From Winogradskyella aurantiaca (lineage in GTDB: Bacteria; Bacteroidota; Bacteroidia; Flavobacteriales; Flavobacteriaceae), in the NCBI RefSeq assembly GCF_003362725.1, contig NZ_QKTV01000002.1, positions 248,001 to 312,000 of the forward strand: a stretch of DNA of 64,000 bases, in the 5' to 3' direction. Position numbers and translations under genes: made by a program. The notes beneath the pieces are model-generated. The model did no database searches. It worked only from the letters and a program-made list of their open reading frames with translations, and was not told the DNA's origin. Positions 23,432 to 27,942 of this stretch are shown in pieces. Every line of letters starts with the position of its first letter. Positions within the stretch are counted from its first letter, which is position 1.

Positions 23432-24751
23432 ATGAGCGACGCGTATAAAAATCCAGCCTTTAAAAAATTACTACAAAAGCTTCAGGAGGAGAGCTGGCAA
23501 TTGGAATTAATTATCTCTGGTTTTGCCATTTTTGGGTTGGTATCTGCTTTTAGCGAGCTAAGAATAGGTGTTGAAACGGCGGAAAACGAAGAAAATATCT
23601 ACGAAGTCATCTTCTTCACGGTAGCCATCGTATCCTGCGCTATTCTCATTTTTAATTTATTACTTCATGTGGTTTTAAGAGGCTTGTGGATTGGTGCTCT
23701 TGGACTTCGCTATGTCTCTGGTGATATTGATTATGATGAGTTGAGATATAGTCCAAAATTCACCAAGTATCTCAGTAAAAAAATTGGCTCTTTTGATAAG
23801 TACATTGCTACTCTTGAGAATTATTGTAGCATCATATTTGCCATTTCATTTTTACTAATCTTTTATTTTCTGGCCCTAACGTTTTGTATTCTGGCTATTG
23901 TTCTTATTTCAAATTACATAATAGACAACGACAATATTCAGGAGAGTTGGAGGCTTTCAATTGGTGTACCACTATTAGTTTTTGTAGCCATTGGTATGTT
24001 ATTAACCTTCATTGATTTTATTACACAAGGATGGTTAAAACGTAAAAAATGGATTAGCAGGATTTATTTCCCAGTTTACTGGGTGTTCAGCTTTCTTACA
24101 CTCTCCTTTCTATACAGACCACTTGTTTACAACTTTTTAGACAACAAGTTTGGAAGACGCATTAGCTTTTTCTTTTTACCCTTGTTTTTCCTGTTACTTT
24201 TTGCAAGTTCTATAGTAGATAAAAAGTCTAATTATTTTGATGATCAATTAGGATTTAACTCAAGCCAGTACTATGGTAATCCACGTGATTATGAGGACCA
24301 ATTGATTGAAAAAGATGAATTAACTGAAACGGCATCTATTCATTCAAAGATTATTACTGAGCCCTATATTAAGGTATTTATAAACTTTGATGATAGTATT
24401 GAAAATAATGTATTTCGATTTAGCCCAGATCTAAAGCCAGAAGAGGATGGTCGTGGAATAACCTCAATGGCCTTTGTAGATATGGATTGGGGGGAAATTG
24501 GTCGTCAAAGAAGGCAATATTTAGAAACTTTCAATTCCATTTACAGTGTGCGCATTGATACACTTAATATTCCTGCTGAATTTATCATGGGGCATAACGT
24601 CCAGAAACAGCTTGGTTTTGAAACATATGTTCCAACAAGTAAAATCTCTCAGGGCAAACATATGCTCAACATTATGAGAAAACGTATAAGAAATAGTGAT
24701 ACTATAATTTCTACACTAAGAAGTATTCCTTTTTGGTATTACAATGACTAA
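23432..24751 (+). CDS. Six-helix membrane protein, function unknown
   Basis: 439 residues, not recognised. Hydrophobic stretches at about 27-45, 62-85, 135-165, 180-195, 213-232 and 245-262 give about six membrane helices. The C-terminal 175 residues (from about 265) are polar and likely lie on one side of the membrane. They contain KSNYFDDQLGFNSSQYYG and RGITSMAFVDMDWGEIGR. The protein starts cytosolic (MSDAYKNPAFKKLLQKLQEE). The stop codon overlaps by 4 bp the stop of the convergent anti-sigma-like gene. No transport or enzyme motif was seen. Expression follows directly after the terminator of the ABC/M1 operon. Confidence 0.75.
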   Translation: MSDAYKNPAFKKLLQKLQEESWQLELIISGFAIFGLVSAFSELRIGVETAENEENIYEVIFFTVAIVSCAILIFNLLLHVVLRGLWIGALGLRYVSGDIDYDELRYSPKFTKYLSKKIGSFDKYIATLENYCSIIFAISFLLIFYFLALTFCILAIVLISNYIIDNDNIQESWRLSIGVPLLVFVAIGMLLTFIDFITQGWLKRKKWISRIYFPVYWVFSFLTLSFLYRPLVYNFLDNKFGRRISFFFLPLFFLLLFASSIVDKKSNYFDDQLGFNSSQYYGNPRDYEDQLIEKDELTETASIHSKIITEPYIKVFINFDDSIENNVFRFSPDLKPEEDGRGITSMAFVDMDWGEIGRQRRQYLETFNSIYSVRIDTLNIPAEFIMGHNVQKQLGFETYVPTSKISQGKHMLNIMRKRIRNSDTIISTLRSIPFWYYND

Positions 24752-25152
24752 TAGGTTAATCGTCTTCCAAAGTATGATTTAATCACCGTCATTTGAACGC
24801 CAATCATTATTGCAAGAAATAGCACTGCGTATTTAAAAGTTCCAGAGAGTTGGAAGTTGATATTGTCAAAAAGTGTAAACTCAGGTCGTGGCAATTCAAA
24901 ACTAGACAGCCATTGGCCATCCGCTGAACCATTATTTAACATTACAAAGGCCACGAGGAATGTAAATGACAACACAATTAACAACCAAACACGTTTAGAA
25001 ATTAAGGGTTTATAAGCCGTCACTGTAGAGGTTTCAATTGCATATACCTTATCCATTACCTTATCTGTAAAATTTACAGATGGGGACTCCAATGCTTCAT
25101 CACGCATTAAACGCTCGAGCATAGCATCTAATTTCTCATTATCATGTTCCAT
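24748..25152 (-). CDS. Putative membrane anti-sigma partner of the ECF factor
   Basis: 134 residues. The N-terminal 45 residues are charged (MEHDNEKLDAMLERLMRDE...), then come membrane helices near 54-72 and 110-126. Its start overlaps the end of the ECF sigma gene by 11 bp, the usual arrangement for an anti-sigma factor, though the zinc-binding HxxxCxxC signature of many anti-sigmas is missing. Role as sigma sequesterer is an inference from context. Its stop overlaps the convergent membrane-protein gene by 4 bp. Confidence 0.7.
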   Translation of the reverse strand: MEHDNEKLDAMLERLMRDEALESPSVNFTDKVMDKVYAIETSTVTAYKPLISKRVWLLIVLSFTFLVAFVMLNNGSADGQWLSSFELPRPEFTLFDNINFQLSGTFKYAVLFLAIMIGVQMTVIKSYFGRRLTY

Positions 25153-25723
25153 AATTCAAATTGTTTTTAGGAATCATATACTGCTCCATTATTTTTGCGA
25201 GCTTTTTTCTAGCTCTAAATAGTTTCACCTTCACTGTATTTGATTCGATTCCAGTGATACCTGAGATTTCATCTAGAGATAATTCATCAAAGTAAAAAAG
25301 CGTAATAATCGCACTACTCTCCTCTGGCAACCTATTTACACAGGATCTAATCAATTGTTGCTTCTCTTCTTTTATTAAGCCTTCAAGGGCATTATCTATG
25401 GTATCAATTTTATTGTAATTATACGCATCTACAGGCACATCGTTTAAGTGCTTTTTATTCTTTTTAATCTGATCCAAACAACAATTATAAGTAACTCTGT
25501 ATACCCAGGTTGACAGTTTGGAATCTCCTTTAAACGAAGCCAGAGACTTGAATATCTTTATAAATACATCTTGTGACACTTCTTCTGCTTCTTCTCTATT
25601 TTTAAGCATGCGTATGGCCAATGTATAGACCAAATCCTTGTACTGGTCTACCAATTTTGCATAGTCGGCGGTATTACCCTTTAATATGCTAGCTACTAAT
25701 AATGCTTCTTCGTTGGTGGTCAT
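25142..25723 (-). CDS. ECF RNA polymerase sigma factor
   Basis: 193 residues with sigma regions 2 (DLVYTLAIRMLKNREEAEEV, near 30-50) and 4 (LFYFDELSLDEISGITGI, near 140-158), the latter a helix-turn-helix that reads the -35 element. Region 3 is absent, as in all ECF factors. It is the first gene of an operon with the membrane protein at 24748. The promoter upstream is the ECF-type TGTAACC-N16-CGTC, which is also found in mirror image for the divergent DUF6249 gene, so the factor probably drives its own transcription. Confidence 0.93.
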   Translation of the reverse strand: MTTNEEALLVASILKGNTADYAKLVDQYKDLVYTLAIRMLKNREEAEEVSQDVFIKIFKSLASFKGDSKLSTWVYRVTYNCCLDQIKKNKKHLNDVPVDAYNYNKIDTIDNALEGLIKEEKQQLIRSCVNRLPEESSAIITLFYFDELSLDEISGITGIESNTVKVKLFRARKKLAKIMEQYMIPKNNLNYGT

Positions 25724-25734
25724 TCTATTGGTAA

Positions 25735-25761
25735 GACGACAATTGTTCTATTTAGGTTACA
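25735..25761 (-). promoter_or_regulatory. ECF-type promoter of the sigma gene
   Basis: Reading leftward, TGTAACC (25761-25755), 16 nt, then CGTC (25738-25735); the ATG is at 25723. The same elements and spacing recur for the divergent gene. The TGTAACC/CGTC pair fits known ECF promoters (-35 with AAC, -10 with CGTC). Confidence 0.8.
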
Positions 25762-25784
25762 AGAAAAAAATATTTTTTGAAAAG

Positions 25785-25811
25785 TGTAACCTCAATTCGA
25801 AATGCTTCGTC
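25785..25811 (+). promoter_or_regulatory. ECF-type promoter of the DUF6249 gene
   Basis: TGTAACC (25785-25791), a 16-nt spacer, then CGTC (25808-25811), 46 bp before the ATG. It is the mirror copy of the sigma-gene promoter, and the two -35 elements form an inverted repeat around an AT-rich core of 23 bp. Confidence 0.8.
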
Positions 25812-25857
25812 ATAAGCAACAAACAATTAAAAATAATCAATAAAACGAATAGAAATT

Positions 25858-26205
25858 ATGGATGAAGAAATTTTAATACCAATCACAATGTTTGCCGCTA
25901 TTTTCGGGATTGTATACTTATACTTCTCAACCCGAAATAAGGAGCGCCTGGCCCTTATAGAAAAAGGAGCCGATGCCAGTATTTTCGTTAAGGGTAAAAT
26001 GCATACCGCGCCTTTTTGGAAAGTTTTTATTTTAAACTTTGCCCTATTATTAATGGGGATTGGAGCTGGGATTTTTATCGCGTCTATTTTGGAATATGGC
26101 TTAGGTGTCGACGATGAAGTTGCCTATCCAGGAACAATATTCCTTATGGCAGGAGCAGGACTTTTTGTAGGGTTTAACATGACCAAAAACCTTGATAAGG
26201 ACTAA
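25858..26205 (+). CDS. DUF6249 membrane protein
   Basis: 115 residues with about three membrane segments (5-22, 53-75, 88-105). The family-like stretch NKERLALIEKGAD between helices 1 and 2 is typical of DUF6249. Function unknown. It is divergent from the ECF sigma gene and probably belongs to that sigma factor's regulon, because its promoter is the same TGTAACC-N16-CGTC. A good terminator follows. Confidence 0.8.
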   Translation: MDEEILIPITMFAAIFGIVYLYFSTRNKERLALIEKGADASIFVKGKMHTAPFWKVFILNFALLLMGIGAGIFIASILEYGLGVDDEVAYPGTIFLMAGAGLFVGFNMTKNLDKD

Positions 26206-27267: not shown

Positions 27268-27942
27268 TTATTCAATTGGAAAGTTAAAGTATCGTTCTGT
27301 AAACGGTTCGTCTCTCACAGTAAAATGCCACCATTCCTTGTTATAACTTCTAAATCCAAAACGATTCATAGTTTCCTTTAATAATGTTCGATTGGCCTTC
27401 TGTTCTTCACTGAGATTTTGATTGTCTAACCCGGATATTGGACCAAAAAAATCAAACGGACTGCCCATATCTAGTTCCTCGTTTGATGAAAGATTGATAA
27501 TAGTAAGATCTACGGTGCTGCCTCTACTATGCCCTGACTTGGAAGCAATGTAGCCTTCTTTGAACAAGTGTTGTTTAAGGACCTCTGGATAATAATCAGC
27601 CTTTTGTAAAGTATCATTGAAATCTCTTGCCCATCGTACAAAATGGTCCACCGCTATTTGAGGCCTATAGCCATCAAAAACCTTGAGACCATACCCTTGT
27701 TTATTCAGATGATCTTGTACTTTTCTTAATTGGTCTGTCGCTTTTTGGGTTAAAAACAACTTATTAGCGCGGTACCCATCTATGGTATCACCGATGAAAT
27801 TATTAGTAGAATAATAGCGTAATTCTATCTTTAATGATGGTATTTGTTTGGAAACCAAAACAAATTCAGTAGGCTTCTGCTGTTGTGACGATAACAACCA
27901 ACCAACTAAAACAATGAAAATAACGCTTAATCTATTTCTCAT
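27268..27942 (-). CDS. D-alanyl-D-alanine dipeptidase, VanX-type (M15D)
   Basis: 224 residues with a signal peptide (MRNRLSVIFIVLVGWLLSSQ). Zinc ligands of the M15 family are visible as H138 and D145 in GHSRGSTVDL and H206 in EWWHF; E203 is the catalytic acid. FDGYRPQ near 90 is the conserved substrate-site segment. Such enzymes split D-Ala-D-Ala, here in the periplasm and probably in cell-wall recycling rather than vancomycin resistance, since no vanH or vanA lies nearby. It ends 7 bp from the convergent gene at 27260 and starts 30 bp from divergent alkB. Confidence 0.9.
   Translation of the reverse strand: MRNRLSVIFIVLVGWLLSSQQQKPTEFVLVSKQIPSLKIELRYYSTNNFIGDTIDGYRANKLFLTQKATDQLRKVQDHLNKQGYGLKVFDGYRPQIAVDHFVRWARDFNDTLQKADYYPEVLKQHLFKEGYIASKSGHSRGSTVDLTIINLSSNEELDMGSPFDFFGPISGLDNQNLSEEQKANRTLLKETMNRFGFRSYNKEWWHFTVRDEPFTERYFNFPIE

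Follow-up and report, generated by a model that had tools for sequence, protein, structure and literature searches.

Mirrored probable ECF-type promoter elements between a sigma factor operon and a divergent DUF6249 gene in Winogradskyella aurantiaca

The intergenic gap between an ECF sigma factor operon and a divergent DUF6249 gene of Winogradskyella aurantiaca carries two facing copies of a two-part element, TGTAACC-N16-CGTC. Both copies are very probably promoters of the sigma factor encoded at the same locus, which would make the locus an autoregulated sigma/anti-sigma operon with DUF6249 as its dedicated divergent target. Because the promoter pair is kept across the whole bacterial phylum, the regulatory link between the sigma factor and DUF6249 is almost certainly real.

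The locus and its two predicted promoter elements

A pattern search of the window (the whole 64-kb stretch of DNA analysed) for TGTAACC-N16-CGTC returned two matches and none beyond the sigma/DUF6249 gap: TGTAACCTAAATAGAACAATTGTCGTC on the minus strand (25761-25735) and TGTAACCTCAATTCGAAATGCTTCGTC on the plus strand (25785-25811). The original prediction had placed exactly this element on both strands within 134 bp, and both copies lie where it had put them, the figure of 134 bp being the length of the intergenic gap (25724-25857). The -35 boxes (25755-25761 and 25785-25791) likewise form the perfect 7-bp inverted repeat that it had described around an AT-rich core. Comparison of loci extends the conserved unit to TGTAACC-N16-CGTC-N-TA, which both window copies fit, with CGTCTTA on the sigma side and CGTCATA on the DUF6249 side. 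The features of the locus are as follows.

24748..25152, minus strand: putative membrane anti-sigma factor, 134 aa, with a cytoplasmic N-terminal part of about 50 aa and two hydrophobic segments
25142..25723, minus strand: ECF sigma factor, 193 aa, sigma70 regions 2 and 4, SigW/RpoE-like
25732..25761, minus strand: predicted promoter of the sigma/anti-sigma operon, TGTAACC-N16-CGTC-TTA, with 11 nt between the end of the -10 tetramer and the sigma ATG
25762..25784, no strand: AT-rich core separating the -35 boxes, 23 bp of which 20 are A/T, with A/T tracts kept in the logos; at a guess, a shared UP-like region of both promoters
25785..25814, plus strand: predicted promoter of DUF6249, TGTAACC-N16-CGTC-ATA, whose -10 tetramer lies 46 nt ahead of the frame's first ATG
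25858..26205, plus strand: DUF6249 protein (PF19762), 115 aa, three predicted helices, mean pLDDT 68.7

The sigma protein scores above the cut-off for PF04542, PF08281 and TIGR02937 (Pfam, NCBIfam), and a sequence search of the PDB matched it to 5wuq (E 1e-25) and 1or7 (E 3e-19). It has the make-up of an ECF (group 4 sigma70) factor, with regions 2 and 4 only and a length in the range of about 160-200 aa, and its operon carries upstream an AAC-type -35 and a CGT/GTC-type -10 of its own. The anti-sigma candidate, whose gene has its first 11 bp within the sigma gene, has the position and topology expected of such a protein, namely a place adjoining the sigma gene and a cytoplasmic N-terminus followed by a transmembrane helix (in a weak model, pLDDT 59), its hydrophobic segments starting at about residues 54 and 106. 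In most relatives a homologue can be recognised next to the sigma gene. Searches of Pfam, NCBIfam and the PDB recognised no domain in its sequence and, since the protein matches no family, we call it a putative anti-sigma factor from its position, size and topology.

The DUF6249 protein reaches 58.5 bits against PF19762, for which the curated cut-off is 33. A PDB sequence search with this protein and with the anti-sigma candidate gave nothing credible, and their predicted structures (pLDDT 69 and 59, respectively) were too weak to support a fold search. Within the incomplete literature coverage, we found one paper on DUF6249, concerning a plant gene family, and no description of a DUF6249 module. 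Near the locus, the interval 27268-27942 on the minus strand encodes a protein that by eye resembles a VanX-like D-Ala-D-Ala dipeptidase.

Conservation and parallel change of the promoter pair

DUF6249 homologues occur in 88 of 201 genomes of the same bacterial family, and nearly all loci retrieved have an ECF sigma gene divergent beside DUF6249; among 30 DUF6249 loci sampled across the phylum, an ECF sigma gene was present inside the retrieved 3.3 kb in 29. The exact extended motif precedes DUF6249 in 68 of the 82 orthologous family loci, the sigma gene in 52 and both genes in 47, while the majority of family loci lacking the exact motif are off by one base. Base-shuffled regions yielded no extended motif (0/24,600). 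Logos display TGTAACC and CGTC-N-TA on both sides of the locus, including TGT and TA, which played no part in the selection of sites. The N16 motif was present in 80 of the 201 genomes: 77 of the 88 that have DUF6249, against 3 of the 113 that lack it (Fisher p 3e-39, kinship ignored). Two of these three have their match within a frame, and in the third it precedes an orthologue of the sigma gene, on a contig of 4.4 kb. The N17 version gave six matches in total across the 201 genomes. This comparative evidence fits the earlier proposal of ECF-type promoters before both the sigma operon and the DUF6249 gene, with autoregulation and one co-regulated target.

The two promoters also change in parallel. 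Both sides of the locus agree at the second base of the -10 in all 129 loci (CATC on both in 5) and at the fourth base of the -35 in all 129 (TGTGACC on both in 2), and at the first base of the -10 they agree in 111 of 129, compared with 86 by permutation. Two-sided agreement exceeds permutation at several promoter positions, although it is inflated because the loci are closely related, and independent pairs on the sigma tree (about 3.5-3.9 concordant, 0.1-0.2 discordant) are too few for p < 0.05. Among paralogous sigma-DUF6249 loci, some carry a CATC -10 on both sides (L118/L231, L119/L223, L190, L253 and L257) and others TGTGACC together with AGTC on both sides (L120/L256), and such like alteration of both promoters is expected if one sigma factor reads both. 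Distant locus classes have TGAAACC with -10 elements of the GGTC or AGTC type. From the conservation and the matched changes we infer that the sigma factor binds both elements and transcribes its own operon.

An alternative that we consider unlikely is that the elements are true ECF promoters served chiefly by a different ECF sigma factor, or by several with overlapping regulons. Elements of the AAC/CGT type are common to ECF sigma factors at large, and the Flavobacterium psychrophilum motif SM6 could not be attributed to a single sigma factor (PMC9723704). The present genome has fifteen sigma70-family genes above the cut-off of the ECF model, and another ECF sigma gene (L217, G000:C17 near 39709) has a similar element, TGTAACA-N15-CGTCGTA, upstream, so cross-recognition could occur. 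The exact motif, however, tracks the sigma-DUF6249 locus across genomes, and both promoters change along with the sigma paralogues, which favours the sigma factor of the locus itself.

It is much harder to read GGTTACA-N23-TGTAACC as the operator of a dimeric regulator of both genes, with incidental CGTC boxes, and we give this very little credence. The repeat is indeed perfect and lies midway between the genes, but each half is accompanied, at a constant 16 bp, by a conserved CGTC-N-TA, while the distance between the TGTAACC boxes varies between 3 and 762 bp (commonest 29-32 bp) without damage to either promoter. In addition, a locus rearranged so that DUF6249 and sigma form a single operon (L163) still has such a promoter upstream, retaining in a single orientation one half plus its -10. 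The operator reading was rejected on the variable spacing of the halves and, because the distance between promoters is unconstrained, the repeat is better understood as a consequence of two promoters facing each other than as a separate element. Lastly, chance likeness of the two intergenic stretches can be practically dismissed, since, short as the elements are in AT-rich DNA with further single matches within genes, the two copies in the window compare with 0.06 expected (100 shuffles, of which one reached two), in keeping with the original prediction that they were unlikely to be fortuitous, and the motif is kept in dozens of genera.

Predicted regulon and leader lengths

A genome-wide search for TGTAACC-N15-17-CGTC had been suggested along with the original prediction. 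In the 3.1-Mb genome it gave four matches, and the two outside the locus both sit in coding sequence, one in an mnmG-like gene (L001) and one in a 273-codon minus-strand frame (L004/L129). Elsewhere in the genome, sites with up to one mismatch all fall within coding sequence, leaving no close intergenic site; the predicted regulon is therefore the sigma-DUF6249 locus alone, and its two promoters are probably the sole ones under this sigma factor in the genome. A wider regulon in this genome was considered and rejected, with the one-mismatch sites all in genes and sites of up to two mismatches numbering 44 versus 80 for a reversed-pattern control. Among the 30 sites retrieved from the two-mismatch search, two (L130 and L139, each with two mismatches) fall outside long frames.

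Relatives have about 18 exact sites off the locus, mostly intergenic, and where there is a clear downstream gene the site lies mainly 20-42 nt upstream of it. Five of them, in four other genera (L155, L156, L157, L160 and L170), place an exact TGTAACC-N16-CGTC-N-TA 20-31 nt before genes for secreted beta-lactamase-fold proteins (PF00144), and DUF4440 targets contribute one exact site (L153) plus a related one with a disrupted frame (L154). The position of off-locus sites before secreted-protein genes suggests that secreted targets were added in a few genera, and the beta-lactamase-fold sites are predicted to be a lineage-specific extension of the regulon. The earlier claim of a single co-regulated membrane protein holds for this genome, at up to one mismatch, but is too narrow for some relatives, in which the motif also stands before beta-lactamase-fold and DUF4440 genes. 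DUF4440 (SnoaL/NTF2-like) secreted proteins recur off the locus and, by eye, are also seen after the DUF6249 paralogue of L118.

The -10 tetramer lies 9-12 nt from the sigma ATG in 112 of 128 loci, and at a median of 45 nt from the DUF6249 start. On the assumption that transcription starts 6-10 nt past the tetramer, the sigma leader would be 0-5 nt, and we predict that the sigma message is translated nearly leaderless. Within that range, 6-9 nt comes from the original prediction, and 9-10 nt is our interpretation of a Sinorhizobium meliloti table whose text lacks the start marks (PMC6180224). Leaderless mRNAs amount to 5.5% in F. psychrophilum (PMC9723704), and leaders shorter than 10 nt to 3.7% in B. 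thetaiotaomicron; a conserved, nearly leaderless sigma message is predicted in a group where leaderless or very short leaders make up about 4-5% of mRNAs.

Proposed circuit and comparison with known systems

In the circuit that we propose, a membrane signal would cause the anti-sigma protein to let go of the sigma factor. RNA polymerase with sigma would then transcribe leftward, producing sigma and anti-sigma and so combining positive feedback with restoration of the inhibitor, and rightward, producing DUF6249 as the dedicated target. Because the putative anti-sigma factor and DUF6249 are both membrane proteins, the signal is most likely envelope or membrane stress. For DUF6249 itself, the likeliest role is that of a small protein of the inner membrane that either relieves the stress or acts back on the anti-sigma factor. 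A bolder joint reading, which we put forward tentatively and regard as somewhat doubtful, is that of a phylum-wide one-locus sigma circuit whose entire conserved output is sigma, inhibitor and DUF6249. DUF6249 would then be more than an effector and would join the anti-sigma factor in a complex for sensing or feedback, the nearly leaderless sigma mRNA would be selected for a translation unlike that of the DUF6249 message, and the promoters would co-evolve with the sigma factor as natural specificity pairs. The widespread DUF6249 family gains a predicted regulator and a testable context, and the natural sigma/promoter pairs (CGTC, CATC, AGTC and TGTGACC types) provide material for rules relating sigma residues to promoter bases.

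Escherichia coli RpoE and Bacillus SigW are sequence relatives of the sigma factor described here, and autoregulation of this kind is typical of their families. Their regulons are large, at tens of genes, whereas the predicted regulon here is one locus. Within the same phylum, the Bacteroides EcfO-Reo and Das/Dma pairs also combine an ECF sigma factor for envelope or oxidative stress with an adjacent anti-sigma factor, but anti-sigma factors of the Das/Dma type span both membranes and include an outer-membrane barrel, in contrast to the candidate here, with its 134 aa and two hydrophobic segments. The flavobacterial motif SM6 of F. psychrophilum resembles our element in having a -10 that contains CGT and in that its targets include one ECF sigma/anti-sigma operon; it differs in driving genes for type IX secretion along with others switched on when nutrients are low, and the available part of the source describes neither a DUF6249 partner nor a mirror pair (PMC9723704).

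The nearest arrangement is found in ECF16. In Brucella melitensis BcrS-AbcS/bcrXQP, the sigma/anti-sigma operon is likewise divergent from the main target and the -35 TGTAACC is mirrored; the starts have been mapped, and autoregulation and a small number of targets are experimentally supported (PMC8315932). RpoE7-EcfR7 of S. meliloti shares this arrangement and these features, with a -35 of TGTAAC(C) on both strands (PMC6180224). The ECF16 -10, however, is CGAA at N17 after TGTAAC, while ours is CGTC-N-TA at N16 after TGTAACC. Set against the ECF16 promoter TGTAAC-N17-CGAA, our elements agree in spacing (N17 after TGTAAC) but not in the -10, and because that -10 is CGTC rather than CGAA the sigma factor is not ECF16 by promoter. 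The Brucella and Sinorhizobium targets, BcrX (a methionine-rich peptide), DUF692 and DUF2063, are unrelated to DUF6249, and these bacteria belong to another phylum. The mirror ECF circuit is a type already known from other bacteria, and we file the present locus under it, as an autoregulated ECF sigma factor with a divergent dedicated target.
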